Below are positions 6,577 through 64,000 of a DNA stretch of 64,000 nt, piece by piece. Both the position numbers and the translations under genes were made by a program. The stretch comes from Smittium mucronatum (lineage: Eukaryota; Kickxellomycota; Harpellomycetes; Harpellales; Legeriomycetaceae). Where the stretch lies: contig LSSL01000273.1 in NCBI GenBank assembly GCA_001953115.1, positions 1 to 64,000 of the forward strand. Reading direction: 5' to 3'. Position 1 is the first letter of the stretch. Each line of letters opens with the position of its first letter. The notes under the pieces are model-generated. The model searched no databases. It saw nothing but the letters and a program-made list of their open reading frames with translations, and was not told where the DNA came from.

Positions 6577-7339
6577 TAGGGCATAATCTCATATTTTGAA
6601 ATGATATCAGAAGAACCAGCGGTCCTAAGATGGACAGGTTGAATTAAAGTTGAAATAATAGATATTTCGCATTTTTAAAATCATTTATAAGTTTTGGATG
6701 ACTAAAAATAAGGATAAATGAATAGAGTTTATCAAATAATTATTAAAAATCTCTTAATTACAATTTTTTTGTAAAAATATTGCGAAATATTCAGACTAAC
6801 TCCAGTAAATAAAAGCTAAATCAGTTTTTTGTAAAAATATCACAATTAAGCACATTTTCTTAAAATAATGAATCCAATGCGTTGATTTTTTATAACATAG
6901 ATTTCAATAAAATTTGATGATAAAATTTTCTTTTGCATATAGTAATTAAAATTTTATATTTTTTCAAAAATTAAGCTAAGTTAAAGTTTAATAATTAAAA
7001 AATTGCAATAAAAAATGATTATTTTTAGAAAAACTTGAAAGATGTCCAAATTGACTTAAATATTCAAATATTGTCATTTATCTTTTTGATTTTCTTGAAC
7101 CATTTTTTGCAAAAAATTCAGGCGTATCATTTTTATTTCAAGGTTTCCTGGGTATCTTTAGATTGGATTATTCAGAAATACTTACCAAATCTTTGCAAAT
7201 TTTTTTTATTCGCATAATTGATAGATTTATCAATTCCTTTAATCATTTATGCTGCGTACTCACATGAGTATTTATCTTCCACTATAAGTATTCTCATTTA
7301 AAACTGTGAATTTTTTAAAATTTTTGATTATTTAATTAT
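6577..7339. other. Non-coding AT-rich DNA (left arm; mirror 63238-64000)
   Basis: I recognise nothing here. The ORF at 7035-7217 is a short Phe/Leu-rich reading frame without features. The stretch lies just downstream of the pogo relic's reading direction. Confidence 0.6.
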
Positions 7340-8617
7340 CCATAGCTTATCTAGAAATTTTTCAAAAATAAGATCAAAAAATCATTTATAGTATTCAAGG
7401 ATGAAAAATCAGAAATAATTTCAGCTTTTAAAAAGGATTTCATAATGTTTTTTCTCAACAAGCTCTCCCAGATTGGATAATAATATTTATCCGCGTTTAA
7501 TATCGTAGCGGGCTTGCCAAGCTCGACAACTGTAGATTCACCTTGTATTTTTTTGCTAATAAACTCATAATATTCTTATCATTTTGAGGCATATCATAAT
7601 AGGATATAAATTTACTCTAAAATATATATTCATAACTTTTATTAAAAACAGCTAAAATTCCCATATTCATAGTTCGCATCAGGGATGTGGCATTCAAAGG
7701 CAGAGATATCGTTTTTTCTCTTTTAACTTCTTGGATTTTCGAATTTCCCAGATCTTTTTTAAGAATTAAACGAGTTTTTCAAAATAAATTATCTTTTTAC
7801 ATAAGGTCTGGATATCTTAAGAAATAATTTCACAAAAATAAATTAACCCATACAAACATTTTTTTGGATTTAGTATGCTGTATGAATAGTTTTTCCACTA
7901 AAAAATTCAGGACTTTTAATTTCTCCGATTATAAGAAATATATTTTGTGTTTCCCGGTAGAATTAATGCACATTAAAAGAAAAACTCTTTCCTTTGATTT
8001 TTTTTTCCTTGAAAAATTTTCAAATTTTCTCTAGGGTAAAAAACGATATAACTTGGTCCATTTTATAAAAACTTTTGGTTTCTTTTATATTGTATAAATA
8101 TTCAGGAATGTATTCATCCATGAATTTCTGAACTTTTAGCAAGTTATTATAAGTTTTAGAGCCTTTTCTGTCCGTTTTCGCGCCTTCTTCGTATAAAATT
8201 TTCGTTTTAACATCCATCCTCCTAGAAAATTCAGAATACCAACCTTTTGTAGCTCAGAAATAGAATATATTGAGTTTTTCTGCAGTTTGGATATTTTTTT
8301 GTAATTTTAATTGTGGTGGAGGTGTGAGCTTAGATTTCCATTGTCTTTCTAATCAATCCAGAAGATTTTTTCCTAGTTCTGGTTACTTTAGAAAAGGATT
8401 TCTGAAAATATTTTTAATTATATTCTTATCAAATCCCAAAGATCTAGATTTTAGTGCCTCTTTATTTACAAGTATACTTCTTATTGCTTTATCACTCACA
8501 GAAAAATTTCTACCTAAATATCTTAATTAAGGAAGATGATTTTTTTCCAAGTGTTATTATTGTTTGACGGAGTTGAATCTCCGAAAGTTTAGGCCAACAC
8601 CACATCCCACTTTTCCC
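7340..8617 (-). pseudogene. pogo/Tigger-type (DDE_1) transposase relic, left arm
   Basis: Read on the minus strand, frames shift but conserved blocks of pogo/Tigger transposases appear in order. First is a Psq/CENP-B-like helix-turn-helix (about 8617-8390), with FSVSDKAIRSIL recognisable. Next is the start of the DDE domain (8217-8020), where EYIPEYLYNIKETKSFYKM matches the family pattern around Y-N-x-D-E-T-G-L-F-Y. Then come a GKHKIYFLIIGE block and, near 7680-7760, SLPLNATSLMRTMNMGILAV, which matches the family's LPPNxTSxxQPxDxG block. The first catalytic aspartate position reads lysine, several stops and frameshifts interrupt the frame, and the D-N motif is not legible. The element is dead. 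Assignment rests on motif order, not on a database search. Confidence 0.72.
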
Positions 8618-9322
8618 TTTTTTTAGAAATTTTTGGTTTAATTGAGGCCCAATTTAACATAAAGCCAATAAAATTGAGTGCTCATGTATTAGATTATTTA
8701 AAAAAAAATTATTGAAAAAGAATTTCGGATTTCAATAAAATTTATTGATTTATCAAAATTACCCAAAAAAAGTAGTAGATAGATTGAAAATGGGGTGCAT
8801 GTTATCAATAGCAACCAAATATTATTTTTTTTACTCAAGTCAGCAAAAGTTTAAAATATGTGGATTTAATTAAGTTTATGGTGCGGGCTTAAGATAGACT
8901 GTAAATAAAAAACTAAATTAATGATGAATAATTTCAAGCGAAGCTGCAATGGAAAAAAATATCATTATGTATAAAATGTATAAAAATCAACTGTGAAAAT
9001 CGACTCGAATTTTGAGCAATCTCAACTTGAACTTTTAAGAACATTAACAAGAAAATTATATCAAATTTGGTAACTTTAAATAGTTTCATTTATCTTGATT
9101 CCAAATTCCAAATATTTTTTTATTATGTGAGGCGATTATAAATATTCACAAAGTAAAGTTTACCTATATTTCCATATTTTTTTTATTATAGAAGCCTAGA
9201 TTTGAAAACGAAAGAATGTATCTTCTGAAAAGATTGTAAAAATGCCATTAATTTAAATCATTACCTCCGTTTACGACAGCTTTCCCGCTAACGGATTTCA
9301 CCAACCAGATATTAACTTGAAG
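8618..9322. other. Non-coding DNA between pogo relic and broken ORF
   Basis: No ORF with recognisable content. Homopolymer-rich sequence, presumably decayed repeat DNA (mirror 61255-61959). Confidence 0.55.
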
Positions 9323-10107: not shown

Positions 10108-10304
10108 GAAGTTAAAGGAAAGCATCTTTTACGACATTCTATTTTGTGCTATTTTATAGGCTGAGCCATATTTATAATTCCAGCAGAAATATAGTTGATG
10201 AATTTTCAAAAATTATTCGGGTTAAAATCGTTAATATACAAACACTTAAGCTGTAAAAAAGCATCCTTGTTTAGTAAATACCACCAAAACTAATTTCATT
10301 TAAA

Positions 10305-13300
10305 ATGGAAATGTTCAAATTGTCAGCTATCCTATCAGGCCATCAGGATGATGTATGTTCCTTCATACTACTCTTTCATTCTAGGCAATACAATGTCTAT
10401 ATGTTGTCAATATTTTTTCATGCTCATTCCTTTTTACCTGCATTCGTAAACTTCTCGATTTAGGTTAGGGGAATAGCTTCTTTAAATGAAGACTGCGTCA
10501 TAACCGTCTCCAGAGATAGAACTGGCGGAGTATGGGATCGTCAAGGCCCTACAAATTTTTCTATGGAAAAAATGTTAATATCACATAATGCCTACGTGAA
10601 TTCCGTCACCATCTTAAGAATTTCCCAAAGCTGTATTAATACTCTTTTTTTTACAACTCAATTTTCCATTTTTTTAATTGTTGTATCAAAAAATAGATTT
10701 TGTCGTCACTGGAGGCTCTGACAAAATTATTTACGTCTGGGACACCCAAGACTTTTCCGCTCCCATTTATACCCTGCTTGGCCATACCGATAACGTCTGT
10801 ACTTTATCAACGACAAAGGATGGGAAAATCCTTTCTGGTTCTTGGGACAAGTACCTATCCAATATTGTTTCTGGCTTAAAGATTTCCTATCACCTTACAA
10901 CGGCTTCAAATTAAAAATTATTTTTAAAACCTATGATTTTAGATCAGCCAGAGTTTGGACAAACTTTCAAACTCAGTACACTCTAACTGGGCATGATTAT
11001 GCAGTATGGGGAGTGATAGAATTTAACAGCGATTCAATTCTCACTGGTACCCTTTTATACTTATTTTATCTTAATCCAAATACACAGCTTCTTATTTTAT
11101 TTTTTAGCGTCAGCTGATAAAACCATCCGTAGATGGGTTAACGGAAAACATGTGAAAACCTACACTGGTCATTCAGATTGTGTTCGGGCTCTCGTAGATC
11201 TTGAAAATGGAAGTTTTGCTTCTGCTGGAAACGATGGGTAACTTTTTTTATATTTAGAACTATGTCGTTTTTAAATATGGCATATTATAACTGTTTTTTC
11301 AGGTCAATCAGAGTCTGGGATGTTGATGGCTCTTGCTTAATGGAACTTTATGGCCATAGTTCATTTATTTATTCAATTGTTCTCCTGCCCACTGGAGAAT
11401 TAGCTTCTTCTTCCGAGGATCGCTCTATAATAATATGGAGAGGTAAATTTCACAATATTTACCCTATCGATATCCCTAATATTTATTTTTTTAATAGATG
11501 GAGAAAATGTTCAAACTATCTTTTTGCCTGCTACATCGATATGGTGCCTTTCCACAATATCTAACGGTGACATTGTATGTGGCACCAGTGATGATAATGC
11601 TTATGTATTTACAAGAAATAAAGATAGATATGCCGATTCTAGCACCCTCAATACCTTCAATGAGGCAAATTCCAACTTTGCTGAGTCCAAGTACAACGTT
11701 CTAATTTTTGATCTTAAAACACAAACTAATTTCTTTATCTTTATTACTGAAAAAATAGGAAAACAAAGACCGACATCAACACTGATAAGCTACCTGGTCT
11801 TGAAAGATTGACTGAGCCAGGTATTTTCTTTTTCAAACTTTATGTCTTATTTTATAACTTTTTTCTTTATACCAGGTAATAAGGATCAACAAGTCATAAT
11901 GGTGAAAAATGAGAGCCAAGTAGAGGCATATCAATGGGATGCCTCATTGAATAGCTGGATGAAAATTGGCGTGGTAACTGATGCTATAGGCCAAGAAAGG
12001 AAACAGCTTTATGAAGGCAAAGAATATGATTATGTTTTCTCAGTTGATTTGGAAGATGGAAAACCTATTAAAAAATTACCCTATAACTGTTCAGGTAAAA
12101 AGAATTATTAAAGATTTTGCACTGTACTTGAAATTTTCATTTTTTATTCAAAGTTTATGTATATATCTATCCGTTACTATTTTTTTCAAAAAATGGATTT
12201 ACTAGCCAGCTATAACCTTTTAATCAAATAAATTTCACATAGAAAACCCATACACCGCAGCTCAGAACTTTATTAACAAGCACCAACTTAGTAATACATA
12301 TTTGGATGAAGTTGCTAGCTTTATAATAACAAACTCAAAAAATTCCGAGATTGGGCCTGCCCCAACTAAAGGTGATCCTCTCACAGGAAGCTCCAGATAC
12401 GTTTCTGGAAACTTGAACTCTACCCAATTTGGTTCCGAAAATTCCAATGGTGACCCCTTTACTGGGGGCTCCAGGTATTTGTCTGGTGATGGCAATACTA
12501 CAAAACCAAAACCCCAAGCTAAAATAGATAAATATGTTTGTCCTGTAAGATTTTTTAAAAAAATAATTAAATTTAACTTGCATAAATAGTTTTCCATTTT
12601 AAAGCATATCTAAAGTCTTCTAATCTTCAAATTAGAAAAAGTATATAGTTATGGACTCGGGTAATCCAGACGCTATTTACAGAAAGTTAGATGAGTTCAA
12701 TGCCAAAGTTGAATCAGAATCCAATGATCTAGCATTTAGCACCTTAGATATGAGCTCGATAAGGAGTGTAACCAATGCACTTTCAGGAAAGTCGGTTTCT
12801 GATCAAGAACTAACATCAGGCATATTAAAAATACTGCAGGGTGCCAAAAGTTGGCCAATCGAGTACAGATATCCCCTTTTAGATATCATTAGACTACTTG
12901 TATGTAAGAATTACTTTCAGGGAGATATCAAAAACAATCTTCTATCAGGTAATAGGATAGATATATTTATTGAAAATATCTGTGCTATTGAATATGGCTT
13001 CCAAAACAAAAAGACAGATGGTATACAGGTTAGAGCTATTATGGCCTTACGTTTAATTGTAAACATGTTCAATTCTGTTAATGGACAAAATGAGATTGTT
13101 TTGGGGGGGATGGGATTGTTATCTCTTTGCAAACTATTGATTGAATCAAACCCAAATAAAAATACAAAATTAGGAATTTCATCCTTTTTGATGAACTTCT
13201 CATTGCTTTTGTATAATGAAATACTGATCTCGAAGAACCCGAATTTGTTTTCTGATTCAGAGGTATCAGTCCCCGAACTGTATTCTAGGTTGGTTGATCT

Positions 13301-13674
13301 GACAGTGGATTTTTTGAATATGGAGACATTACTTTTACAAGAGGAAGAATATATTTCAAACGAAGCGGGTGGGGGAAAAAATGATGTTTTGTTTAGATTA
13401 GTTAATACTTCAGGGATTTTAATGTTAATAGCTAGCTCCCCAGCAGTTAAAAGCGATTCGTCATTTTCAGAAAAGCTTAATTCGAGTGGCATTGAGAATT
13501 CTCTTAAGAACCTATTAAATATCAATGGATCTGGAATAATAGCAACAACCACAGGTAAAATGAAACCCATTTTGATTATGTTAAAATTTATTTTACGTGT
13601 AATACACCAATTAATCAATAACTATCCTTTTAGAATCAATCCTAGAAATTCAGGGGGGTGTACCTGCAGCTTAA
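10305..13674 (+). CDS. DOA1: DOA1/UFD3 (PLAA) ubiquitin-binding Cdc48 adaptor, 12 exons, left arm
   Basis: Exons 10305-10352, 10464-10632, 10697-10850, 10943-11046, 11108-11237, 11303-11442, 11498-11690, 11759-11820, 11876-12094, 12243-12544, 12636-13554 and 13634-13674 join in frame to 826 codons; all introns are GT-AG. Seven WD40 blades fill residues 1 to about 290, beginning SAILSGHQDDV and VSRDRT, and form the ubiquitin-binding propeller. A PFU domain follows (about 334-445), with EAYQWDASLNSWMKIG, YEGKEYDYVFSVD and LPYN typical of PLAA. Then comes a linker with two DP(L/F)TG(S/G)SRY motifs and a C-terminal PUL domain (about 505-820) that binds Cdc48/p97 in known homologues. Family role: ubiquitin homeostasis and sorting with Cdc48. 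Length is close to human PLAA. The last small exon is the least certain part. The gene appears intact. Confidence 0.93.
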
Positions 13675-15207
13675 TTCCAAGTAAAGATGCATTACTTTTA
13701 TCGACTTGATTACAAAATGTTTGTTTAGGAAAGCGTGTTCGCGTAAATTCTCATTTTCCGAAAAGTTAATTTCCGTTTTCAGAATTTTTTTTCCAAATAT
13801 AATTTTTGCTGAACGTTTCGAATGAACAAGTGATTTTTAATAAATGAGTAAATATGTTTTTTTTATGCTTTGCCCAATAGTTTAAGCTAAGTTTAATAAA
13901 TATAAATTACATTGAGCCATATATTGTTTGAAAAATAATTTCAAAAGTAATTTTGTTAATGACGAACGTTCAGTGATTTAAAATTTGTTTCTTGAAATTT
14001 TTACCGGTTCATAACAAAAGTGGTATGCATAATAGATCTATGATTTTATCTTGTTCAAGAATAATTATGTGTAAAATGTACTGGGAAATTAGATTTAACC
14101 AATTGACATTGTTAAATTGAAACAATTGTTATGTTATGTTATTGATTGTTTATATTTTTAAATTATGAAAAGTATCATTGTCCTTAAAAGGATAATAAAA
14201 TCTAAACTGATGTAAATAATGGCAATACATATCTTAGGCTACAAGAGAAGCCCTGAGTGTTTTTGAGAAAGTTTGTTGAGTGGAATGCTTTTATAATGAA
14301 AACACATTCATATTAATTTGTTTTTTCTTCCTCTTTGCCCTAATGCCGTACTTGATGAAGCTATGATGATGAAAGAGGCTTATAAATTAATAATATTTAA
14401 TAAACAGTCTGGTCCAATTCTCTTTTGTAAAACATAGATCCAATTTTCGTGGACAATGGGTCACAAAGTCTTGGTAAATAGTAACATTTGCATATATAAT
14501 TTAAGAAAGTCTAAAAATTAGATATACTGAAATACCCACATTCTATATAACCTTGTATCGCTATTGTTTATAAAACATTCAACCATCTTTTATTTCCCTT
14601 CACTCTAAGATAATTTATATTTGTGGGCTAAAGTAACCAAGAATAACCCCATTCCTTTTTTTAACAAGAAATCCATATTATACATACTAGGACTCTAAGA
14701 TACTGTATTTTTAAACTTGAACGTTTGAGTTACTGTACCTGGAACTTTTCTGAATATGCAATATTGAGAGGAAATAGAAGTATATTTTAATTTATATAAA
14801 AGACTTTAAGCATTACTAGATACATCTTGACAATCAGTATACTAAATACTTTTGTATCTATTCCTTTTTGTAAAAGCCTTTTTCTCTTTACTAAAAAGAA
14901 AAAGGGTTTATTATCTCTATTTATTACTTGGTTATTACTAGCTCTGTAATTTATACTTTTTGGAACGATCTTTTTTTTCCCCGCATTATCTCAGTCTAGA
15001 TTCAAAATTATTTATTGAATTTATGACTTTAACGGTTTATTTTCTATATTAATTTATTATATCTTATCTTATAAAGGTGATACTGTCTTTTTTACTATTT
15101 TATACGCCTACATTTTCACACTTCGTATCAATTAAAACATCAATAAACAAGAACTTCTGTACATATTTATCTTTTCCCCGAATATCAACAGTTTCGCAGC
15201 ATTGCCA
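13675..15207. other. Intergenic region between DOA1 and cyclin genes
   Basis: Non-coding sequence between two plus-strand genes, holding the DOA1 3' flank and the cyclin promoter. No ORF of note and no tRNA-like structure were seen. It contains a hairpin near 14877-14905 made of complementary T/C-rich and A/G-rich arms. Mirror: 55370-56902. Confidence 0.6.
14877..14905. repeat. Imperfect hairpin, pyrimidine/purine arms
   Basis: A CCTTTTTCTC arm is followed by an AAGAAAAAGG arm with a short ACT-centred loop, giving a stem of roughly a dozen pairs. It lies about 300 bases upstream of the cyclin start. It may be a transcript-end structure or chance in low-complexity DNA. Mirror copy at 55672-55700. 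Confidence 0.4.
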
Positions 15208-17518
15208 ATGTTGTCTTCTGGTAAAGATTTAAAACACCACAGTTCCAAATTTGGCAAATTTGGGACAGCAATGGCTAAAAAAAAACCTCCGATGACGAGT
15301 CAAAAGGATAAAATTATACTTAATACTCAGTTGATTGGTAAGTTCTCTCTCTCCAAAAAATACTAACAATAAGTCCTAAATTTTGTATTATGATATAGAA
15401 ATAATGGAGGTGTTAGTCTCTGAACTATTTACAGCCCAAAATACCAAAAAAGTGGTGTCTGATTCGCAAAATATTCGGACCACAATGGGAATATTTAAGA
15501 AAAATAATCAGCCAAATACTAAAACTACACATTCTATCCCGCCATTAAATGGGTTTATTACTAAACTTGTTGAACGGACAAGCACTCCAGCAACATGTCT
15601 AGCATTGGCAATGCTGTACCTGACAAGAGTGAAAGCCAATAACCCAGCAATGGTGGGGTCACCAAATTCATCGTACCGTTTAATAATAGCATCTTTGTGT
15701 GTAGCAACCAAATACTTGTATGATGATGCATATCACAACAATAGCTGGTACTCGATATCTCATGAAATATTTTCACTTGCTGAAATCAACCGAATGGAGC
15801 TTGAGTTTATGTATTTCTTGAGATATGACCTTTATATTTCTGGAAACGAATGGAATTTATGGATCGCAGCTCTTGAAGCCAAACTAGTAAATTACTGGCA
15901 CTCAAAGTACCATGGAAGCCCGGAGGTTTCCAATGGAATAGGAACAGATCAAATTCAGAACACTTTTAGCAACTCTGGCCCAAAAAAAACACGTTTTTCT
16001 TTTATTAAAAAAGACATTAACTTGGAAGAACTTGGTATAAAGTTTTTTTACAGGAACCAAATATTTTTGGCATTTGAATGCTGCGATTTAGCCGATGCAC
16101 CCACCATATCAAATCTCGCATGGAGTCCTAAGGGCCAAACCCTACTAGAATCACTCAACCGATCAATATACAAGACGAGTTTAAAAAAATCTAAACAGGG
16201 AGAGTTGTCAAATTCCAAGATTAGTGGATCTGGAGGGTTTATTGCAAGTACTCCCGGATACAAATCAAGTGATTCTAGTGTTGTCAGCTCTCTGGGATCG
16301 AGTCGAATTAAGAGTAGTTTAGGGTCTGAAAAAACGATGAATGCCAGCACATCAGCTTCAAGCGTGGGTCTAGTAACGCCATCTAAAACTGGATTTGATG
16401 GCGATGGAGTTACTAGTAAGGAGAGGTATCCTTCTTTAGACAAATCTGAATCTTTTCATCATCTCGACTATTCTACTCTTCAAACGACCCCATATTCTAA
16501 ATATTTTGGGCTCAAGCGTGAAAAGCGATATGCTGAAAATGAAAAATACATCAAAAAGCACGATAATACATTATTTTATATTCCAGAAAACTCTGCTATC
16601 AATCAGGATGCTCGTAAGGAGAATAAGTATCAAGGGTACGGTACCAAAAATACAAATTCAGAAGCCTCATCGGGCTCTAGTAATATAGTTATAAGCAACC
16701 CGTTTCCAATTCCACTGATTTACTCGAAACAGTCGGGCATCAGGAATGATAGCAATACATCAAACAAGACTATGATTGATGACTGGAATGAGCCGTCATT
16801 AGGAGAACATAATAATCCCGATATTTCCAGGAAAATCGATGAACTATCTAAAATATACTCAAGAATGGAATTGGCAGAGTCTGAAACACCCGATAAAATT
16901 GCAAAAATTTGCACACGAAGTGACATAAATCCAAATAAGAATAATTTTGATTTGATTTCATTCCAAATTCCAAGTTATAAAATTGATTTAAAAAGAGGAG
17001 GGCAGAATCTTTGCAACAAGATTGGATCACCGATCCCTCCCAGGAGCAGCAGCCGCATTGGAAATAGAAGGGATTCATCTAACATAGCTGCCAACAACTC
17101 TAGTCGTCCGATATACGATGATTTTTCAAGAATACCCTTTCTTTCCAAAAGAGTATCTGTACGAAAACCTACCGAACAAGATTGTAAGCTTTTGGGTCTG
17201 GAGCTTTTAAAAACGGATGTAGATTACCAGGCGCATAGAAATAAGGTGATTAGCGACGCTAAATTAACCAAAGTGGGTGATAACAATTCTACAAGCAATT
17301 TTGTGAACGCAAGGATTAGAAGCAAATCCAAAAGTACTGATTCTGAACTGTCTGCATTGTCGTCGCCTATATATTCATTGGAGTCAAACTTTTCAAACTC
17401 ATCACTAGAATCTAATTATGTGCAGATTTCTGAAAAGGTATTGTTGACTAAGCTGGGAAATGACGACGTTTATCAAAAACCTAGTGTTATTAATATCTCT
17501 GATTTTAAAAGGATTTAG
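15208..17518 (+). CDS. Pho80/Pcl-type cyclin with long disordered tail, 2 exons, left arm
   Basis: Exon 1 (15208-15337) and exon 2 (15399-17518) give 749 codons. The 61-bp intron has a GTAAGT donor and a perfect TACTAAC branch site at 15361-15367. The PHO80-like cyclin box spans about residues 91-206: PPLNGFITKLVERT, then LALAMLYLTRVK, then a helix with LIIASLCVATKYLYDDAY and the W-Y-S-I / EINRMELEFMYFL segment typical of this family. Family members activate a Pho85-type CDK, so a role in nutrient or cell-cycle signalling is inferred. Residues from about 210 on are Ser/Asn/Lys-rich, with several S/T-P sites, and look disordered. A 749-residue protein is long for a Pcl cyclin. The start is chosen at the first ATG whose exon splices in frame. 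Confidence 0.85.
15361..15367 (+). promoter_or_regulatory. Consensus intron branch site TACTAAC
   Basis: A perfect TACTAAC heptamer lies 31 bases before the acceptor AG of the cyclin intron (15338-15398). It matches the yeast-type branch-point consensus and supports the intron call and a fungal origin. Confidence 0.8.
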
Positions 17519-17557: not shown

Positions 17558-19167
17558 TTAAAGTTTAGTTTTTTTAATGATTTTTGCAATGAACATCCCT
17601 GAAGTGTCTGAAAATCTTGGATCCAATCTTGCACAATTTTCTAAAGAATCTATCCAAGGGAAATCAGATTTCGGGTAGATTTTGTATACTTTTTCCAAGA
17701 ATAATTTAGAATTGCTGAAATGGTTGCTTATTAATAAAGAATGATGGAGAGGCACTATAGATGGAATGCAACTAAACACAAAAAAATATATACGTTATTT
17801 TTAGTAAGTCGGGATTGAAAGTAAAGGTTATTACTCTGAATTATGGTCCATAATTATCTTTTCCATAAACTTGGCTATAACGAGCTCATTTTGTTTATAG
17901 CTAAGCGAGCAAGTACTGTAGATCAGCGTTCCGTCGACACATAAATTATTCCAACCGTTGAGTATTAGTTTATATTGCAGATCTGAAACATTTTTTAATC
18001 GATCGTATGTGAGAAATTCGTCGTCCAATTTAGCAAAGGAACCAGAAGAAGTGTTTATATATTTTTCCAAATGTATCAGTGATCCATCGTGAGAGCATTC
18101 AGCATCAACGAGAACTTTAGAATATTTTTTATTTGCTAAAGAATTTGGAGTGGATATATTTCTAAGTAGCTTTGAAGAGAAAAAGGGCTTTAAAACAGAG
18201 CTTTCTGTTTTAGATATCTTTGGTTCTTGTAAACCATTAGGCTTGGAAGGAGGATTTTTTTTTAAATGATTAAAATCCCACCAATTTTCATCCGGAGGAG
18301 GGACTTTAAAAGTAGTACCATCTGTAGCAAATAAACGTACACGTATTTTTGCCATTGAATTTGATTTTTTAATTAAACTCTGGCAAATCGAAATGCGTTT
18401 TTGAGATATGTCAACGCCAGTAATGGTGCCAAAAGATTTTTTCGAGGGAGGGCCGTTTTTTTGCAAAGAGTCAGCAATAAGCAGCAGTTTTCCTCCTGGA
18501 GCACAACATAAATCAAGGACGTGGTCATTCGGATGAACTTCTAAACTCATTGCAGTTATAACAGAGCTAAGATCAATACCAATAATCTAATTTTTTTAAA
18601 AGCGGAGAAAGACAAAAAAGATCAACATCTACTAAATAGTATTTTATTTAATGTTAATTAAAATACCTTTCCTGTTTTATACCTAAAAATTGTATAGATT
18701 AGATTAGCCGCTTATATGATTATTTGATTTTAAATAAAAGATATTAAAAAAAATTACAAATCAGTGTTATTTATTTTGGCTTTTCCATCTGAAATTCGAA
18801 GAATTCCCAATATTGTTGGAGAAAGAGAAACTTTACAGTGAATTTGGGCTTGTAACTGTTTTGCGATGTTTTCTAAATATTTCGTATCTTTGGAAAAATT
18901 CATTTCTAGAGTATTTGTTCCCCTTTCAATTTTTTGAGAGGATTCAGATTTTAATCTTTTTGAAGGATTGTCATTGTAGTTATGAGGGAAACCATTGATT
19001 ATGGTATAATCAAAACCAACGACCCTGACATATCTGGGGAGATTTTCTAGGCAATTATAGATATCAGAATCGACATCAATACTCTTGTAGAAGGAAGAAA
19101 TTTGCTTTGACCAATCTTGAGAATGACCTTTAACTTCTTTGGAATTAAATTCGAGAGTATTTTCCAT
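17558..19167 (-). CDS. NOP2/Sun-family RNA cytosine-5 methyltransferase, 4 exons, left arm
   Basis: Minus-strand exons 19167-18758, 18682-18667 (16 bases), 18586-17835 and 17771-17558 join in frame to 463 codons, with GT-AG introns. The N-terminal region has LPRYVRVV. The SAM-binding motif I is LDLCCAPGGK, preceded by IIGIDLSS encoded upstream of the apparent internal Met. GVDISQKR follows, then ATDGT. Motif IV reads VLVDAECSHDGS, and motif VI is LIYSTCSLSYKQNE with the nucleophile cysteine. The end ARLDPRFSDTSGMFIAKI fits the family C-terminus. Members methylate tRNA or rRNA cytosines using two cysteines, and both are present, although the usual Pro before the motif IV Cys is Glu. The exact subfamily is undetermined. 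Transcribed divergently from the SAP-domain gene. Confidence 0.87.
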
Positions 19168-20475: not shown

Positions 20476-21364
20476 ATGCAATACGATGAAAAGACATTAA
20501 AGAAATGTAAAGTCCAAGAACTTAAATCTATTTTGAAAGATCTTGGCCTGAATACTGAGGGTAAGAAAGATGAACTTATATCTAGAATTCTTGAGCAATC
20601 CAAAACAATAGAGCCCGTAAAAAGTCCCAAACCAGTTTCGGAATCGACAAAAAACATCATAGAATCAGGTGCAAAAAATGAATTAACACCTATTTCGGCA
20701 AAGGATGCAAATGAGTATACTACTTTTTTAAAAAAATTACTTTCCAAATAAATATAAATTTTCTCTTGAATTTAAAATCATTTATTTATAGGGTTAAAAA
20801 TGATCCTGCTTCAATCAAAGAACTTTCTGAGTCCGAAAAACTATTAAGACGGGCAGAAAAGTTCGGTCTGGCTACAGCTGACATTTCCGATTTGACTGAA
20901 GAAGAACGTTTACAACGACGGATTTTGAAGTTTGGTCCTATTAAAACACCTTCTCAAAAGCCTAGTAAAATTGAAATCGACACCTCTTCAAATTCATTAG
21001 ACCCCGAGATTCTTAAAAAAAGGGCTGAAAGATTTGGGATTACACAAGCTGTTTCTCCTTCAGGGCTAGAAAAGAAAACATCTTTAAAACGTGAGGTTGA
21101 AATTTCCGAGGTAAAATATTTTATTTATCTTTCTGTTTTTAATTCTCTTTTCGATTTTTAAATTTTCTTTTATCCATCTAATTAAATGTTGTATTTTAGG
21201 AGGAGAAGGAGAAAATTAACAAGAGGCAAGAAAGATTTGGATCAATAGATGGTGCCCAAGGTCCCATTTCTAAAACCAAACCTTCAGAGGCAGTCAGTGC
21301 CGAAGAGCGGGAAAAAATGAGGAAACGAGCAGAAAGGTTTGGTCTACCCATTCATCAAAATTAA
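20476..21364 (+). CDS. THO1: THO1/SARNP (CIP29) SAP-domain mRNP protein, 3 exons, left arm
   Basis: Exons 20476-20714, 20792-21110 and 21200-21364 join in frame to 240 codons; introns are GTATAC...AG and GTAAAA...AG. Residues about 1-37 form a SAP DNA/RNA-binding domain (KCKVQELKSILKDLGL, then KKDELISRI). The rest carries five spaced repeats of the form K/R-R-x-E-(K/R)-F-G: LRRAEKFGL, QRRILKFGP, KKRAERFGI, NKRQERFGS and RKRAERFGL. In Tho1/SARNP homologues such repeats bind the DEAD-box helicase UAP56/Sub2 during mRNP assembly and nuclear export. The protein is highly charged and ends five residues after the last repeat. The unspliced frames on either side read into stops, so the introns are required. 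Confidence 0.9.
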
Positions 21365-24073: not shown

Positions 24074-25472
24074 ATGATGAAAACTAAGGCTATCGACAAC
24101 AAGAAAAAGGGGAAGGCTGAGGAAGTCCCCGAAGAGGAATATACTTTGAATGATCCCACAGTTATTGACAAGTACAAATCTGCAGCCAATGTTGCCAACC
24201 GTAAAAATACATCCTCCCTATTTCATTTCCATCCTTCATTTTTTATTTTTCCGATTTAGAATCTTTGTTGGCCGTTCTCGAAAATGTAAAGGAAGGCGCT
24301 TCAATCTTCGAACTATGCAAAATTGGTGATAATAAGGTTGCTGAGCTGTGTAAAAAGTCTTACACCAAGGCCAGCTTCAATAGAGGTCTTTCTTATCCTA
24401 CTAGTGTATCTGTAAACGATATTGCTTGTCATTTCTCCCCCCTTGAAAGTGATGCTGAAGCTGTAAAGCCTCTTTCAAAAGGAGACGTTGTTAAAGTGTA
24501 AGTTTTCTTTCTTATTTCACACTAGCTATTTAGATTGACTAAAAAAAAATTTTTTAATAGTCAATTGGGTGCTCATTTCGATGGATTGGCTGCCGTTATC
24601 GGCCACACAGTTGTTGTTGGCGCAAGCGAGGTAAATTTTATAGTTCTCCATTTTTTATGCACCTTATTATCGTTTTACCACCATGATTTCTTTCTCCTTT
24701 ATTTTTAGGCTGAACCAGTAACTGGAGAAAAAGCCGATTTGCTCTCTGCCGCCCATTATGCTGCCGAAGGAATTCTTCGCATGATCAAACCAGGAAAAAT
24801 GGTACTATTTTTTCCAAGATATAAATTTGCATTTATTATAATTTTTACATTATTGTTTAGTCAACCGAGATTTCAGATGTTGCCCAGAAAATCACCAAGA
24901 CTTTTGACTGCTCTCCTCTGGAAGGATCTTTATGTCATAACCAAACGAGAAACAAAATTGACGGCGAAAAACACATCGTATTGAACCCTTCTGATGAGCA
25001 AAGAAACAAAGTCAAAATTAACACAGTTGAGGTTGGTGAGGTATATCTAATCGATATTCTTGTTTCTGGTGGCCAAGCAAAACCTCGTCCTTCAAAAAAT
25101 AGAACCACTGTCTATTGTAAATCTGGAACCAATTACAAACTTAAAATGCAGGTCGCCAGATCCCTATACTCTGAAGTCAACTCTAAGTTTGGAACTTTTC
25201 CGTTCTCTCTTAGGTGCTGTGAGGACGAAAGGAAGGCCCGTATGGGTGTCATCGAGTGTGCTAAATCTCATGTTTTAGAAGCTTTTGATGTAATTGAAGA
25301 AAAAGATGGCCATAACGTTGCCCAAGTTTGCTTCTCCGTCATGGTTACACCAAATGGTGTATCTCGATTGACTAGTGGACCTGCATTCAACAACAAGATT
25401 ATTGTATCTGATAAGAAATTCGACGCTGAAATCACTGCTTTGCTTAACACATCTCCTAAATCTTTAAAATAA
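24074..25472 (+). CDS. PA2G4: PA2G4/EBP1-type (methionine aminopeptidase-like) protein, 5 exons, left arm
   Basis: Exons 24074-24200, 24260-24497, 24561-24630, 24709-24801 and 24861-25472 join in frame to 379 codons. The chain follows EBP1 throughout: EEYTLNDPTVIDKYKSAANV, GASIFELCKIGD, GLSYPTSVSVNDIACHFSPL, LGAHFDGLAAVIGHTVVVG, the HNQTRNKIDGEKHIVLNP loop, and LRCCEDERKARMGVIECAKS. EBP1 proteins keep the pita-bread fold of type II methionine aminopeptidases without the activity, and bind ribosomes and RNA as growth regulators. The fungal Cdb4 group is the same family. The protein stops soon after ALLNTSPKSLK and lacks the long Lys-rich tail of animal EBP1. The gene appears intact. Confidence 0.93.
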
Positions 25473-29858: not shown

Positions 29859-31290
29859 TCAGAAATCGAAATTATGCTTATGTTTTCGGTCCTTTTGATT
29901 TATAATAAAAAGCAGTAAAATTAGATACACTTTTTTTGATTTAAAAAAATCAATACAAGAACAATAATAATCTTTCCATGTCTCTATGCTTTTTTTAGGA
30001 AATAAAATTTCCATTTTAGCAGAAAACTGCATAAAAAAATCAAAATTCTCGGTTTCCAAGGTTTTTATTTTGTTTGATGTATATCCTACCTACATTTGAT
30101 CGATTGAAAATTCGGAAACACTGAATATAAATTCGTCTAAAATTTTTTTTACATTGTTAAAATGTAAATGATTATCTCTCAATGAAAATCCATTGTATTC
30201 CATTTTTCCAAAGTTTGGTTAGTTTGGGCTTTGATGTTCTTCATTATCTTATTCAAAAATGGGATAAGCTCTATTATTCTTAATGTGTTTTACCTAGAAA
30301 ACTTCTGTTTTACTGTTCTATTGAATCTTTTAATAGCATTATTTTTAGAGAGAAAGAAAATAAATGATCCCCCATACCGATTTTTTTTTTCGAAATGGTT
30401 TTTCGAAATAATTTCCACCAGCTCCATGTTGAAATTGAAATTTTTTCGTTTCAATATAAACACTTCTTTTGTTTTTTTGAAGAGCTTATTGTCCACAATC
30501 AGTTGTATTTTACAAATATATCCATATATTATATTTTCAATTTTATTTTTTTTCTTTCCCGATTTCATCTTTAATATTTTTATATAAACATAACCGGAAA
30601 TTTATTATATTTAAATTCATAGGAAAGGTTGTTAATTCCTTAGATATTTATGGCGTGGAGTCCACTACCAAAAAATTTAGTTCAAAATTAAGGCTTAGCT
30701 TTTTAGTTTCTATAATAATGGTTTCAAAGGCCCGAATGTAATCTTTTTTATCATCTCTGCTGACCGTGGAGATTGAAATATACGAAAAAAAATTTTTATT
30801 GGTAATACTGATAATTATTACTGGGTATCATCCTTTTAACGATTCAAATTTTGAATCAAAATGTGTATTTGCAGCCAGGGAGAGTCTAATTAGCATAATT
30901 TTGATTTCATTTGAAATTTAATATCTTCATGTTCAACTGAATATCATGAAATTTAATGATATTTATCAGTTAAATCTTCATTCGCTTTTTTGAATTCATT
31001 TGCTTACATTATAGTTGTTATTAAACTGACAGCTTTCGATTTTTATGGTGATTATTTCTAACCGAATAATTATTTTGAGATTCAAAAAAAAAAAAAATTG
31101 ATATGGGCTAAAACCATCTTTATTAAAGAAATAATTACATTTTTTATATGATTTTATTTAAACTCTGCGCATATTTAGGAATGGACTGTTTGGTAGTAGT
31201 ACTTCCTAAAATTATCATAATATTCGTCTATTCTTAAATCGCCAAGGCATTCTCCCATGTTTTTTTTACATTGTAATATACTGTTTGCTT
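29859..31290 (-). pseudogene. MULE transposase relic 2 (FLYWCH + DDE + SWIM), left arm
   Basis: Minus-strand reading gives decayed blocks in MULE order. A FLYWCH-like zinc finger lies near 31287-31170 (C-K-K-N-M-G-E-C ... V-H-S). The transposase domain lies at about 30890-30640: NTHFDSKFESLKG, a TGA stop, then YPVIIISITNKNFFSYISIS, VSRDDKKDYI and FLVVDSTP before a second stop. The FNRTVKQ block is near 30310, and a SWIM-like DYYCSCIDFFKSKK near 29950. Both aspartates of the blocks seen (F-D-S and V-D-S) remain, but stops and frameshifts kill the gene. The inverted poly-C repeats at 28930 and 31808 bracket it. Confidence 0.75.
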
Positions 31291-31706
31291 TTATTTGTTG
31301 AAAGTTTTAGAATATTTCACTAGCGTACTTTTAAACTTTTCCTTGATGAGAGAATGTTCTGATATAATCTTATTCTTTTTGGATTCATTCATTGTTATCT
31401 GAATTATATTGAAAATATTTAATGTATAAAGCTAAGGCATTTTTTTAAAAAAAATATTCATATAGGATCTATAGAAAAAGATTAGGCTTAAATTCTTTTG
31501 GATGATAACTATTAACCATAAATAAAAAATTCTATTTTTCCCCTTACATAAAAGTTTTTAATTCAATCTTTTTGCAGAAGATTATTGGTACTTGATATTT
31601 TTATTAATTATAACAAGTTTTTTTATTGATGTGTATTTTAAGTAAACAGAATAGTCGACTTATATAATCAATAAATCGATTTATTAAATTTCAGATTCTT
31701 TCTTAT

Positions 31707-31808
31707 AATATCAGATCTCTGTGAGGGAGGGGGGGGGGTTAAAAAATAGCCTTAATATGGAATAAATCATCAGTGATTTGATCAATTTGTCAAATACTTC
31801 CTTAAAAT
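31707..31808 (-). repeat. Poly-C inverted repeat copy B flanking MULE relic, left arm
   Basis: Inverted partner of 28930-29024, with the same ordered blocks and a 10-base G run on the plus strand. Together they delimit a unit of about 2.9 kb. Target-site duplications were not found by eye. Mirror copy at 38769-38870. Confidence 0.6.
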
Positions 31809-31999
31809 GCCATATTTATTGATAAAATTGCAGTAATTTATTATTTATTCTTTAACCGGACATTAGGTTTAGAAATATTTTCAACCTTTATTGGCTTGAT
31901 TTTTTTAAATTTTTTATTTTTTTAGTAAAAGTTAAAATTTTTTATCCGTAAAAAGTAACTAAGCTTAATAAGATACAGTTGTTGGGAAGATTAAATTAA

Positions 32000-32945
32000 T
32001 TGTTGAATTTAACTTTCCCACCTGTTTCAATGGAAAACCAAAGGCTTTCTATTTTGCTCCAGGTGTCTCTTTTCTTTAGGTATTTGGAATCTCTGGTGAT
32101 TTTTTTATGGTATTTTCTCCATCTAATGAACGTTCCTTCGGCTTGCAGAATTTTATTTGCTAACTTAGCTTCAGTTTTAGCCCTGTAAATATTTCATACG
32201 ACTAGGTCATACATAATCTCAATGTTAGTAAACTTTCCTTTGAATGGCTCTAATAAATCAAATATTATATCTACAGTATTATACTCGTTACTTCATTGAC
32301 CTCCGTATATTTCTTGTTTATAAACCGTAAAATTAGCTTCCAGAATTCTATGAATCTTCTGCAGCCAAAATAAATATGTGGTATATTTTCTTCTCTGGAT
32401 TTGCATATTTTTCATGCCTGTGAATGATCAAATATACATTTTTCTATATTTTCGATTTTTCTCCAGTGATTATTGTGTTATGAAAAAGGAAATAAAATTG
32501 GCTAGTAAGTTTGGATTATAGGTCCAATTTGTGAGTTTTTATCATATTGAAATTTGGTTGAATTTTGACTTATTTACCAATAGTATCCGTTTTTGTTGAA
32601 CTATTGGCTCCTTTTTATATTTCAAGTCAATAATTTTTCTGAAAGAACGCTTTTCCCATCTATCTATAGGTTGATTATTAATCTTGAAGTTTTCAGAATG
32701 TATTTTAGAAGAGTTTATGAATTTTTTATCGAAAAATTAGTGCTTATCGTTGAGCTTATATTAAATATTATTGGTTTATTGTTTATGTTGATATTATATA
32801 TATAATCCGAATCATCTTCCCAGATTGGATCGCAGTTTGCTATAAATTTCCCGCAACTAGTTATTTTATTTTTAGAAATCCATAGTTGGTCTTTCTTATC
32901 CAGGTTAATCCCGAAAATTTTGTTTAATCTTTTTAGCCTAAGCAT
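32000..32945 (-). pseudogene. LINE-type retrotransposon 3' relic with zf-RVT remnant, left arm
   Basis: On the minus strand, frame-shifted blocks end in a recognisable reverse-transcriptase zinc-binding region near 32470-32290. It reads CIFDHSQA, a stop where the first C-x-x-C begins, then KICKSREENIPHIYFGC and FIEFWKLILRF, matching the C-x-x-C...H-x-x-x-x-C...W pattern of zf-RVT. It is followed by a helical C-terminal stretch (AKTEAKLANKILQAEGTF, about 32185-32003). The upstream part (32945-32715) is an open frame starting MLRLKRLNKIFGINLDKKDQ. No polymerase motif (Y-x-D-D) was seen. A truncated, dead element. Confidence 0.6.
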
Positions 32946-33477
32946 TTGGATTTTTTCGTATAGCCATTTTTATATTTCAGAAGGTTAAAATGTATTTATA
33001 GGTCTTTTTGTGGAAAATTGTATCAAATTGTGTAAAAATCAGTCTAATCGATTAAATCTAAATAAAATCGTGTTTAATTGTATCAATTTAGAATAAATTA
33101 GTCAAAATTTGGTATTTCCAAATAAAAATCTGTCAGTTTGAAAAAAAATGAAGATAAAGGCGATTTTTTATCATAAAAGTAAAAAAAAAATACAACCAAT
33201 GAATACAAAACCTTAAAATTCCTCATTTTAATAGCCCTCCAAATTTTTTCCGGGATTTTTTATAATAATGTACTAAAATTTATACCACGAAAATAAAAAG
33301 CACATTTAAACCTAAAAGATCTTTTTATAAACTTTATACTATTTTTTATAAAAATTAAAGGAAAACACTTAAATTTTAAATAAAGAGTTCACTTAGAAAT
33401 CTCCTAGCCATAAATAAATGTTTTGATTCAGATTATTTTGAATACTCGCAATATTTAAAATTCTGGAAGAAAAGATA
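32946..33477. other. Spacer between LINE relic and MULE relic 1
   Basis: Non-coding and AT-rich. TTGTATCAA occurs twice, near 33019 and 33077, in similar contexts. No gene was recognised. Mirror: 37100-37631. Confidence 0.5.
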
Positions 33478-34960: not shown

Positions 34961-35110
34961 GACGCAAAAAAGATTTGAAGGCCAAAAAAAGTTTTAAAAA
35001 ACACCAGTTTGCAATTTTTTTAAAAATCACTTTAGTTTATTGTTGTTTTAGATTACATAAAATATATTTAAAATTTTATATAAAATTAAGAAATTTACAA
35101 GTTAATAGGA

Positions 35111-35466
35111 NNNNNNNNNNNNNNNNNNNNNNNNNNNNNNNNNNNNNNNNNNNNNNNNNNNNNNNNNNNNNNNNNNNNNNNNNNNNNNNNNNNNNNNNNN
35201 NNNNNNNNNNNNNNNNNNNNNNNNNNNNNNNNNNNNNNNNNNNNNNNNNNNNNNNNNNNNNNNNNNNNNNNNNNNNNNNNNNNNNNNNNNNNNNNNNNNN
35301 NNNNNNNNNNNNNNNNNNNNNNNNNNNNNNNNNNNNNNNNNNNNNNNNNNNNNNNNNNNNNNNNNNNNNNNNNNNNNNNNNNNNNNNNNNNNNNNNNNNN
35401 NNNNNNNNNNNNNNNNNNNNNNNNNNNNNNNNNNNNNNNNNNNNNNNNNNNNNNNNNNNNNNNNNN
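35111..35466. other. Assembly gap (356 N) at the palindrome centre
   Basis: A run of 356 unknown bases. The last known base on the left and the first on the right are exact mirror partners, so both arms stop at the same point. An independently assembled junction would seldom break at mirrored bases. A contig joined to its own reverse complement, or a hairpin that blocked sequencing, would do so. Confidence 0.99.
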
Positions 35467-35616
35467 TCCTATTAACTTGTAAATTTCTTAATTTTATATA
35501 AAATTTTAAATATATTTTATGTAATCTAAAACAACAATAAACTAAAGTGATTTTTAAAAAAATTGCAAACTGGTGTTTTTTAAAACTTTTTTTGGCCTTC
35601 AAATCTTTTTTGCGTC

Positions 35617-37099: not shown

Positions 37100-37631
37100 T
37101 ATCTTTTCTTCCAGAATTTTAAATATTGCGAGTATTCAAAATAATCTGAATCAAAACATTTATTTATGGCTAGGAGATTTCTAAGTGAACTCTTTATTTA
37201 AAATTTAAGTGTTTTCCTTTAATTTTTATAAAAAATAGTATAAAGTTTATAAAAAGATCTTTTAGGTTTAAATGTGCTTTTTATTTTCGTGGTATAAATT
37301 TTAGTACATTATTATAAAAAATCCCGGAAAAAATTTGGAGGGCTATTAAAATGAGGAATTTTAAGGTTTTGTATTCATTGGTTGTATTTTTTTTTTACTT
37401 TTATGATAAAAAATCGCCTTTATCTTCATTTTTTTTCAAACTGACAGATTTTTATTTGGAAATACCAAATTTTGACTAATTTATTCTAAATTGATACAAT
37501 TAAACACGATTTTATTTAGATTTAATCGATTAGACTGATTTTTACACAATTTGATACAATTTTCCACAAAAAGACCTATAAATACATTTTAACCTTCTGA
37601 AATATAAAAATGGCTATACGAAAAAATCCAA

Positions 37632-56902: not shown

Positions 56903-59900
56903 TTAAGCTGCAGGTACACCCCCCTGAATTTCTAGGATTGATTCTAAAAGGATAGTTATTGATTAATTGGTGTATTACACGTAAAATAAATTTTAACATA
57001 ATCAAAATGGGTTTCATTTTACCTGTGGTTGTTGCTATTATTCCAGATCCATTGATATTTAATAGGTTCTTAAGAGAATTCTCAATGCCACTCGAATTAA
57101 GCTTTTCTGAAAATGACGAATCGCTTTTAACTGCTGGGGAGCTAGCTATTAACATTAAAATCCCTGAAGTATTAACTAATCTAAACAAAACATCATTTTT
57201 TCCCCCACCCGCTTCGTTTGAAATATATTCTTCCTCTTGTAAAAGTAATGTCTCCATATTCAAAAAATCCACTGTCAGATCAACCAACCTAGAATACAGT
57301 TCGGGGACTGATACCTCTGAATCAGAAAACAAATTCGGGTTCTTCGAGATCAGTATTTCATTATACAAAAGCAATGAGAAGTTCATCAAAAAGGATGAAA
57401 TTCCTAATTTTGTATTTTTATTTGGGTTTGATTCAATCAATAGTTTGCAAAGAGATAACAATCCCATCCCCCCCAAAACAATCTCATTTTGTCCATTAAC
57501 AGAATTGAACATGTTTACAATTAAACGTAAGGCCATAATAGCTCTAACCTGTATACCATCTGTCTTTTTGTTTTGGAAGCCATATTCAATAGCACAGATA
57601 TTTTCAATAAATATATCTATCCTATTACCTGATAGAAGATTGTTTTTGATATCTCCCTGAAAGTAATTCTTACATACAAGTAGTCTAATGATATCTAAAA
57701 GGGGATATCTGTACTCGATTGGCCAACTTTTGGCACCCTGCAGTATTTTTAATATGCCTGATGTTAGTTCTTGATCAGAAACCGACTTTCCTGAAAGTGC
57801 ATTGGTTACACTCCTTATCGAGCTCATATCTAAGGTGCTAAATGCTAGATCATTGGATTCTGATTCAACTTTGGCATTGAACTCATCTAACTTTCTGTAA
57901 ATAGCGTCTGGATTACCCGAGTCCATAACTATATACTTTTTCTAATTTGAAGATTAGAAGACTTTAGATATGCTTTAAAATGGAAAACTATTTATGCAAG
58001 TTAAATTTAATTATTTTTTTAAAAAATCTTACAGGACAAACATATTTATCTATTTTAGCTTGGGGTTTTGGTTTTGTAGTATTGCCATCACCAGACAAAT
58101 ACCTGGAGCCCCCAGTAAAGGGGTCACCATTGGAATTTTCGGAACCAAATTGGGTAGAGTTCAAGTTTCCAGAAACGTATCTGGAGCTTCCTGTGAGAGG
58201 ATCACCTTTAGTTGGGGCAGGCCCAATCTCGGAATTTTTTGAGTTTGTTATTATAAAGCTAGCAACTTCATCCAAATATGTATTACTAAGTTGGTGCTTG
58301 TTAATAAAGTTCTGAGCTGCGGTGTATGGGTTTTCTATGTGAAATTTATTTGATTAAAAGGTTATAGCTGGCTAGTAAATCCATTTTTTGAAAAAAATAG
58401 TAACGGATAGATATATACATAAACTTTGAATAAAAAATGAAAATTTCAAGTACAGTGCAAAATCTTTAATAATTCTTTTTACCTGAACAGTTATAGGGTA
58501 ATTTTTTAATAGGTTTTCCATCTTCCAAATCAACTGAGAAAACATAATCATATTCTTTGCCTTCATAAAGCTGTTTCCTTTCTTGGCCTATAGCATCAGT
58601 TACCACGCCAATTTTCATCCAGCTATTCAATGAGGCATCCCATTGATATGCCTCTACTTGGCTCTCATTTTTCACCATTATGACTTGTTGATCCTTATTA
58701 CCTGGTATAAAGAAAAAAGTTATAAAATAAGACATAAAGTTTGAAAAAGAAAATACCTGGCTCAGTCAATCTTTCAAGACCAGGTAGCTTATCAGTGTTG
58801 ATGTCGGTCTTTGTTTTCCTATTTTTTCAGTAATAAAGATAAAGAAATTAGTTTGTGTTTTAAGATCAAAAATTAGAACGTTGTACTTGGACTCAGCAAA
58901 GTTGGAATTTGCCTCATTGAAGGTATTGAGGGTGCTAGAATCGGCATATCTATCTTTATTTCTTGTAAATACATAAGCATTATCATCACTGGTGCCACAT
59001 ACAATGTCACCGTTAGATATTGTGGAAAGGCACCATATCGATGTAGCAGGCAAAAAGATAGTTTGAACATTTTCTCCATCTATTAAAAAAATAAATATTA
59101 GGGATATCGATAGGGCGAATATTGTGAAATTTACCTCTCCATATTATTATAGAGCGATCCTCGGAAGAAGAAGCTAATTCACCAGTGGGCAGGAGAACAA
59201 TTGAATAAATAAATGAACTATGGCCATAAAGTTCCATTAAGCAAGAGCCATCAACATCCCAGACTCTGATTGACCTGAAAAAACAGTTATAATATGCCAT
59301 ATTTAAAAACGACATAGTTCTAAATATAAAAAAAGTTACCCATCGTTTCCAGCAGAAGCAAAACTTCCATTTTCAAGATCTACGAGAGCCCGAACACAAT
59401 CTGAATGACCAGTGTAGGTTTTCACATGTTTTCCGTTAACCCATCTACGGATGGTTTTATCAGCTGACGCTAAAAAATAAAATAAGAAGCTGTGTATTTG
59501 GATTAAGATAAAATAAGTATAAAAGGGTACCAGTGAGAATTGAATCGCTGTTAAATTCTATCACTCCCCATACTGCATAATCATGCCCAGTTAGAGTGTA
59601 CTGAGTTTGAAAGTTTGTCCAAACTCTGGCTGATCTAAAATCATAGGTTTTAAAAATAATTTTTAATTTGAAGCCGTTGTAAGGTGATAGGAAATCTTTA
59701 AGCCAGAAACAATATTGGATAGGTACTTGTCCCAAGAACCAGAAAGGATTTTCCCATCCTTTGTCGTTGATAAAGTACAGACGTTATCGGTATGGCCAAG
59801 CAGGGTATAAATGGGAGCGGAAAAGTCTTGGGTGTCCCAGACGTAAATAATTTTGTCAGAGCCTCCAGTGACGACAAAATCTATTTTTTGATACAACAAT

Positions 59901-61254: not shown

Positions 61255-61959
61255 CTTCAAGTTAATATCTGGTTGGTGAAATCCGTTAGCGGGAAAGCTG
61301 TCGTAAACGGAGGTAATGATTTAAATTAATGGCATTTTTACAATCTTTTCAGAAGATACATTCTTTCGTTTTCAAATCTAGGCTTCTATAATAAAAAAAA
61401 TATGGAAATATAGGTAAACTTTACTTTGTGAATATTTATAATCGCCTCACATAATAAAAAAATATTTGGAATTTGGAATCAAGATAAATGAAACTATTTA
61501 AAGTTACCAAATTTGATATAATTTTCTTGTTAATGTTCTTAAAAGTTCAAGTTGAGATTGCTCAAAATTCGAGTCGATTTTCACAGTTGATTTTTATACA
61601 TTTTATACATAATGATATTTTTTTCCATTGCAGCTTCGCTTGAAATTATTCATCATTAATTTAGTTTTTTATTTACAGTCTATCTTAAGCCCGCACCATA
61701 AACTTAATTAAATCCACATATTTTAAACTTTTGCTGACTTGAGTAAAAAAAATAATATTTGGTTGCTATTGATAACATGCACCCCATTTTCAATCTATCT
61801 ACTACTTTTTTTGGGTAATTTTGATAAATCAATAAATTTTATTGAAATCCGAAATTCTTTTTCAATAATTTTTTTTTAAATAATCTAATACATGAGCACT
61901 CAATTTTATTGGCTTTATGTTAAATTGGGCCTCAATTAAACCAAAAATTTCTAAAAAAA
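61255..61959. other. Non-coding DNA, right arm
   Basis: Mirror of 8618-9322; nothing recognised. Confidence 0.5.
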
Positions 61960-63237
61960 GGGAAAAGTGGGATGTGGTGTTGGCCTAAACTTTCGGAGAT
62001 TCAACTCCGTCAAACAATAATAACACTTGGAAAAAAATCATCTTCCTTAATTAAGATATTTAGGTAGAAATTTTTCTGTGAGTGATAAAGCAATAAGAAG
62101 TATACTTGTAAATAAAGAGGCACTAAAATCTAGATCTTTGGGATTTGATAAGAATATAATTAAAAATATTTTCAGAAATCCTTTTCTAAAGTAACCAGAA
62201 CTAGGAAAAAATCTTCTGGATTGATTAGAAAGACAATGGAAATCTAAGCTCACACCTCCACCACAATTAAAATTACAAAAAAATATCCAAACTGCAGAAA
62301 AACTCAATATATTCTATTTCTGAGCTACAAAAGGTTGGTATTCTGAATTTTCTAGGAGGATGGATGTTAAAACGAAAATTTTATACGAAGAAGGCGCGAA
62401 AACGGACAGAAAAGGCTCTAAAACTTATAATAACTTGCTAAAAGTTCAGAAATTCATGGATGAATACATTCCTGAATATTTATACAATATAAAAGAAACC
62501 AAAAGTTTTTATAAAATGGACCAAGTTATATCGTTTTTTACCCTAGAGAAAATTTGAAAATTTTTCAAGGAAAAAAAAATCAAAGGAAAGAGTTTTTCTT
62601 TTAATGTGCATTAATTCTACCGGGAAACACAAAATATATTTCTTATAATCGGAGAAATTAAAAGTCCTGAATTTTTTAGTGGAAAAACTATTCATACAGC
62701 ATACTAAATCCAAAAAAATGTTTGTATGGGTTAATTTATTTTTGTGAAATTATTTCTTAAGATATCCAGACCTTATGTAAAAAGATAATTTATTTTGAAA
62801 AACTCGTTTAATTCTTAAAAAAGATCTGGGAAATTCGAAAATCCAAGAAGTTAAAAGAGAAAAAACGATATCTCTGCCTTTGAATGCCACATCCCTGATG
62901 CGAACTATGAATATGGGAATTTTAGCTGTTTTTAATAAAAGTTATGAATATATATTTTAGAGTAAATTTATATCCTATTATGATATGCCTCAAAATGATA
63001 AGAATATTATGAGTTTATTAGCAAAAAAATACAAGGTGAATCTACAGTTGTCGAGCTTGGCAAGCCCGCTACGATATTAAACGCGGATAAATATTATTAT
63101 CCAATCTGGGAGAGCTTGTTGAGAAAAAACATTATGAAATCCTTTTTAAAAGCTGAAATTATTTCTGATTTTTCATCCTTGAATACTATAAATGATTTTT
63201 TGATCTTATTTTTGAAAAATTTCTAGATAAGCTATGG
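61960..63237 (+). pseudogene. pogo/Tigger-type transposase relic, right-arm copy
   Basis: Mirror of 7340-8617. The helix-turn-helix lies at about 61960-62190, the DDE start at 62360-62557, and the LPxNxTS-type block near 62875-62935, with the same stops and frameshifts. Confidence 0.72.
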
Positions 63238-64000
63238 ATAATTAAATAATCAAAAATTTTAAAAAATTCACAGTTTTAAATGAGAATACTTATAGTGGAA
63301 GATAAATACTCATGTGAGTACGCAGCATAAATGATTAAAGGAATTGATAAATCTATCAATTATGCGAATAAAAAAAATTTGCAAAGATTTGGTAAGTATT
63401 TCTGAATAATCCAATCTAAAGATACCCAGGAAACCTTGAAATAAAAATGATACGCCTGAATTTTTTGCAAAAAATGGTTCAAGAAAATCAAAAAGATAAA
63501 TGACAATATTTGAATATTTAAGTCAATTTGGACATCTTTCAAGTTTTTCTAAAAATAATCATTTTTTATTGCAATTTTTTAATTATTAAACTTTAACTTA
63601 GCTTAATTTTTGAAAAAATATAAAATTTTAATTACTATATGCAAAAGAAAATTTTATCATCAAATTTTATTGAAATCTATGTTATAAAAAATCAACGCAT
63701 TGGATTCATTATTTTAAGAAAATGTGCTTAAGTGTGATATTTTTACAAAAAACTGATTTAGCTTTTATTTACTGGAGTTAGTCTGAATATTTCGCAATAT
63801 TTTTACAAAAAAATTGTAATTAAGAGATTTTTAATAATTATTTGATAAACTCTATTCATTTATCCTTATTTTTAGTCATCCAAAACTTATAAATGATTTT
63901 AAAAATGCGAAATATCTATTATTTCAACTTTAATTCAACCTGTCCATCTTAGGACCGCTGGTTCTTCTGATATCATTTCAAAATATGAGATTATGCCCTA
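63238..64000. other. Non-coding AT-rich DNA at the window edge, right arm
   Basis: Mirror of 6577-7339. The inverted repeat is still continuing at the last base. Confidence 0.6.

Follow-up and report, generated by a model that had tools for sequence, protein, structure and literature searches.

A mirrored 35 kb duplication in a Smittium mucronatum scaffold is most likely one locus assembled twice and joined head to head

The window, by which we mean the whole 64,000-base stretch of Smittium mucronatum DNA that was analysed, comprises the first 64,000 bases of a 102,391-base scaffold (C228), the rest of which was also examined. It contains two contigs separated by a run of N, and its main features are as follows.

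1-35110, minus strand: left contig, nearly identical in reverse complement to the first part of the right contig
1-201, no strand: left contig's outer end, which falls in a different dispersed repeat
6845, 9847, 11396, 11460, 11461, 18692, 18733, 18745 and 19483 (left-arm positions): inner mismatches between the arms, all substitutions, with no indels
11205-13709, plus strand: PLAA/Doa1-like gene with WD40 exon(s) and a PUL domain (PUL E=2.3e-28), with a mirror copy on the other arm
15380-17518, plus strand: cyclin gene (Pfam Cyclin / Cyclin_N)
17831-18586, minus strand: RsmB/F-type RNA methyltransferase exon (PF01189, E=1.5e-18)
20715-21161, plus strand: Tho1/MOS11 C-terminal domain exon (PF18592, E=1.5e-10)
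32981-35110, plus strand: first ~2.13 kb of a transposon-like dispersed repeat of ~3.0 kb, truncated at the gap and mirrored at 35467-37596
35111-35466, no strand: scaffold gap of 356 N, the exact mirror centre and the only N run in the scaffold
35467-64000, plus strand: right contig within the window, in which the copy reaches scaffold position 70578

All the genes recognised in the arms come from ordinary families. The gene with WD40 and PUL domains at 11205-13709, which we take to be PLAA/Doa1-like, has its WD40 match at 11328-11438 and the mirror match at 59139-59249; the open frame at 11205-11561 holds three of the nine inner differences. Relatives of the cyclin gene occur in Coemansia and Furculomyces. 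The reading frames at 24205-25472 may encode an EBP1/PA2G4-type protein; a Pfam search with the frame at 24861-25472 gave no family at E 0.001. Within the window, ARAGORN (bacterial code) found no tRNA genes, and no Rfam family reached its gathering score.

Across 6577-35110 and 35467-64000, every position i is complementary to position 70577-i at all but nine sites, which bears out the claim of a sequence-only reading of this DNA that the arms are near-perfect inverted copies with paired positions summing to 70577. A match of such length is not a product of chance. That reading had noticed only three differences, whereas nine can be counted in the same range. It had further placed the duplication at 28.5 kb or more per arm, which holds as a minimum, but its starting point of 6577 is simply the position that pairs with the final base of the window, and the whole of 1-35110 is mirrored. 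An indel breaks the strict register to the left of about 5731, and an end-to-end alignment of the entire left contig with the reverse complement of 35467-70578 gives 99.87% identity.

Over the full 35 kb, the arms differ at 47 sites, comprising 37 substitutions and 10 single-base indels. These are unevenly spread, with 9 in the inner 28.5 kb versus 38 in the outer 6.6 kb. The outer part diverges by about 0.6% (38/6,576), and the inner part is almost free of differences: there are none in the innermost 15,627 bases counted from the centre, and a second run without differences extends for 7.2 kb. The outer value is near the SNP ratio of 0.75% published for the S. mucronatum assembly, which is described as spanning 102.35 Mb in 7,797 scaffolds over 1 kb (PMC5954228).

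Nothing in the left contig (35.1 kb) is unique to it: all of it is contained in the right contig (66.9 kb in total, scaffold 35467-102391), which extends beyond 70578 for a further 31.8 kb, to 102391, without a mirror copy. Both arms are flush with the 356-N gap; the centre thus consists of N only, and a sequenced junction between the arms is absent. When arm positions 12000-13000 served as a 1 kb probe against the genome (73.8 Mb in 2,957 contigs), the two arm copies and one weak match of 46 bases elsewhere were returned. The genome examined is smaller than the published assembly, and may be a subset of it or another assembly.

At the centre, both arms end at the same base inside the ~3 kb repeat, other copies of which continue for ~0.85 kb. 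Genome-wide, the arm's final 1.5 kb has 35 matches: the two arms and 33 others at 66-87% identity. Among ten copies of the repeat that were compared, the match to the arm begins at arm positions 32973-32987, and the six on the plus strand stay alike for roughly 0.83-0.88 kb beyond the shared end of the arms. An alignment of all ten, in which the arm's last base is misplaced, still has a mean of 9.7-9.9 of the ten copies aligned at columns 3240-3779, past the arm end. The repeat may be Mutator-like; a Pfam search with three reading frames from one copy gave no family at E 0.01. The missing ends of two full copies, at ~0.85 kb each, would need about 1.7 kb, for which there is no room in 356 bases, if the gap size is true, unless both copies are truncated. 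A short inverted repeat that turned the assembly walk back on itself was also considered and rejected, because 30000-35110 holds only pairs of up to 37 bases that are 70-90% complementary.

The outer end of the left contig likewise lies within dispersed repeats, position 1 corresponding to 70578 on the right contig. A copy on contig C876 crosses this end point unbroken, at 87.8% identity over 1,287 aligned columns. The left arm ends at the scaffold start with no flank of its own, although an incomplete assembly could also leave none. A scan of the whole scaffold for two telomere-like motifs, tandem TTAGGG (at least two units) and tandem TTAGG (at least four), found neither. With repeats at both ends and its entire length contained in another contig, the left contig looks like a redundant product of assembly.

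For other Harpellales, the group behind the S. mucronatum genome used 2 x 125-base Illumina reads and the assembler Ray 2.3.1, with mate-pair libraries of up to 10 kb, and the S. simulii and Capniomyces assemblies were scaffolded with SSPACE (PMC5954228, PMC4974312). From this work on relatives, we infer that the S. mucronatum genome was probably assembled in a similar way. Reads of 2 x 125 bases and mates of no more than 10 kb could hardly resolve identical runs of 15,627 bases and 7.2 kb, and two copies in the file would consequently be weak evidence of two copies in the chromosome.

Redundancy is also found elsewhere in the assembly. Genome-wide domain searches gave 408 rows (Pkinase 113, Mito_carr 39, RRM_1 49, WD40 149, Helicase_C 58; for WD40, 150 of 295 candidates were scored). 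Copies were counted as pairs, by eye, if they had equal E-value, bit score, model range and open-frame length. By this measure, 17 pairs of equal-scoring gene copies lie on different contigs among the 408 rows listed: seven in Pkinase, one further in RRM_1, five in WD40 (among the matches listed), four in Helicase_C and none in Mito_carr. The pair C1039/C2631 recurs in RRM_1, with open frames of unequal length in one row (196 and 221 aa). DNA comparison of two of the 17 pairs showed 100% identity in both (C2631/C1039 over 2,000 bases, C1940/C754 over 1,500), and each stretch was found in two places only when the genome was searched with it. Long identical stretches are hard for short reads to resolve, and these pairs suggest loci that were assembled twice.

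Near misses were left out of this count. These were C2008/C2047 (54.4 versus 54.1 bits, Helicase_C), C747:7906 versus C747:18657 (67.5 versus 66.3, Pkinase), and WD40 repeats of the same score and range with different open-frame lengths, such as C1590/C2878 and C2173/C507. C747 was considered as a second head-to-head scaffold and rejected, because its mirrored, divergent kinase genes (C747:3001-21938) share only 79% identity across ~0.78 kb and represent an old inverted duplication of an ordinary kind. Long N runs, possibly not assembly gaps, occur at C747:3001-4949 and C229:1-7530. Undoubled loci exist too: ILV5 was found once, and there is no pair among the 39 Mito_carr rows. ILV5, which encodes ketol-acid reductoisomerase, lies here on the 47,579-base contig C227. 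Over its 397 residues, its product is 100% identical to the NCBI protein of S. mucronatum, an insect-gut fungus, and the next match, from S. culicis, reaches 89%; the S. mucronatum protein at NCBI is placed on a 59,539-base contig.

We consider the duplication in the file very probably false: one locus that was assembled twice and joined head to head. The locus would be represented by the 66.9 kb contig and again by the redundant, contained contig of 35.1 kb. The stop at a shared base would reflect a failure of assembly inside the dispersed transposon-like repeat, from which the assembler may have passed outward twice, giving two contigs with the same starting base and with differences only at variant positions. 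Scaffolding would then have set the redundant contig in reverse across a gap of 356 bases. Both the double pass and the faulty link are steps that we infer. The link itself could have come from chimeric pairs or from mates located in the central repeat, and these are guesses. Because the arms differ at 47 sites, one contig cannot simply have been copied letter for letter; the differences may be allelic variants, or variant positions at which the two passes chose differently. Their distribution fits two patchy alleles; conversion between the arms of a palindrome would leave a similar gradient, so the pattern is not decisive.

Such a gradient is one of several features that would also suit a real young palindrome of ~70 kb. 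In it, a fold-back seeded by inverted copies of the ~3 kb repeat would have produced a short spacer between two 35 kb arms, and recent origin, or arm-to-arm conversion fading outward, would have maintained 99.87% identity. The arms are near-perfect, a dispersed repeat lies at the centre, divergence is concentrated at the outer margin as conversion could leave it, and the scaffold join spans the centre. This last point counts against a false duplication: two ends are not usually joined by a scaffolder unless read pairs connect them, and pairs in head-to-head orientation are what would be expected from a true palindrome with a short spacer. Also counting against it, among the 408 rows listed, the sole equal-scoring mirrored pair on one contig is that of C228 itself (WD40), and head-to-head joins are thus not a common habit of this assembly. 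Undoubled loci such as ILV5 weigh on the same side. Even so, a real palindrome appears unlikely. Its left arm would lack flanking sequence, its gap is too small to hold what is missing from two full repeats, its identical arms are so long that short reads could hardly have resolved them, and the assembly is redundant elsewhere. The two copies might instead both be real and non-adjacent, the product of a recent segmental duplication whose second copy lies elsewhere in the genome and was wrongly linked here. Two versions differing at 47 sites would agree with this, as would the genome multiplication proposed for the clade by an earlier study (PMC5954228). However, the duplications of the clade are called ancient in that study (PMC5954228), as against a difference of about 0.13% here, and the left copy again has no flank of its own. 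We regard this account as very improbable.

The sequence-only reading had left the choice between a natural palindrome, implying very recent fold-back amplification, a palindromic chromosome end or conversion, and an error of scaffolding in which one contig, or two haplotypes, had been joined head to head. Its artefact branch is the one that gains support, from four observed features: the contained left contig, the gap at the centre, the dispersed repeats at both left-contig ends, and the redundancy elsewhere. A natural palindrome is not singled out by the central repeat, the link across the centre or the outer divergence.

The analysis indicates doubled loci in this draft genome; its gene counts may be inflated, and gene counts, family sizes and claims of recent duplication taken from it need checking. 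If the palindrome were true, it would represent a young fold-back amplification in a little-studied lineage of gut fungi.

In large natural palindromes, such as those of mammalian Y chromosomes, a short spacer separates two long inverted arms whose identity is very high. The long, near-identical inverted arms are shared with the present locus; unlike those palindromes, it is flankless on one side, its centre is unsequenced, and it belongs to an assembly with redundant contigs. Palindromes created by whole-genome amplification, as described for Pacasus (PMC6218980), are likewise artificial inverted copies of one sequence. Those lie in chimeric DNA fragments and show up in long reads, whereas here there are two contigs and a central N gap.

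The closest resemblance lies with the heterotype and homotype false duplications of Ko et al. 2022 (PMC9516828). The characteristics listed there include an assembly gap separating duplicates that share a scaffold, read depth over the copies that is half (heterotype) or very low (homotype), discordant read pairs between copies and, for the heterotype form, one-copy k-mers, and the same-scaffold share of false duplications is given as 7-24% in three older vertebrate assemblies (PMC9516828). Here, 356 N at 35111-35466 lie exactly between the copies. Containment, a criterion of our own that is not taken from PMC9516828, is seen in the alignment of 1-35110 end to end with 35467-70578. That class is defined by read depth, read pairs and k-mers, whereas the present case is known from sequence alone and has its copies head to head, an arrangement for which the main text of PMC9516828 contains no word beginning with 'inver'. 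In both, near-identical copies lie on the same scaffold with a gap between them, and their genes are counted twice (PMC9516828).
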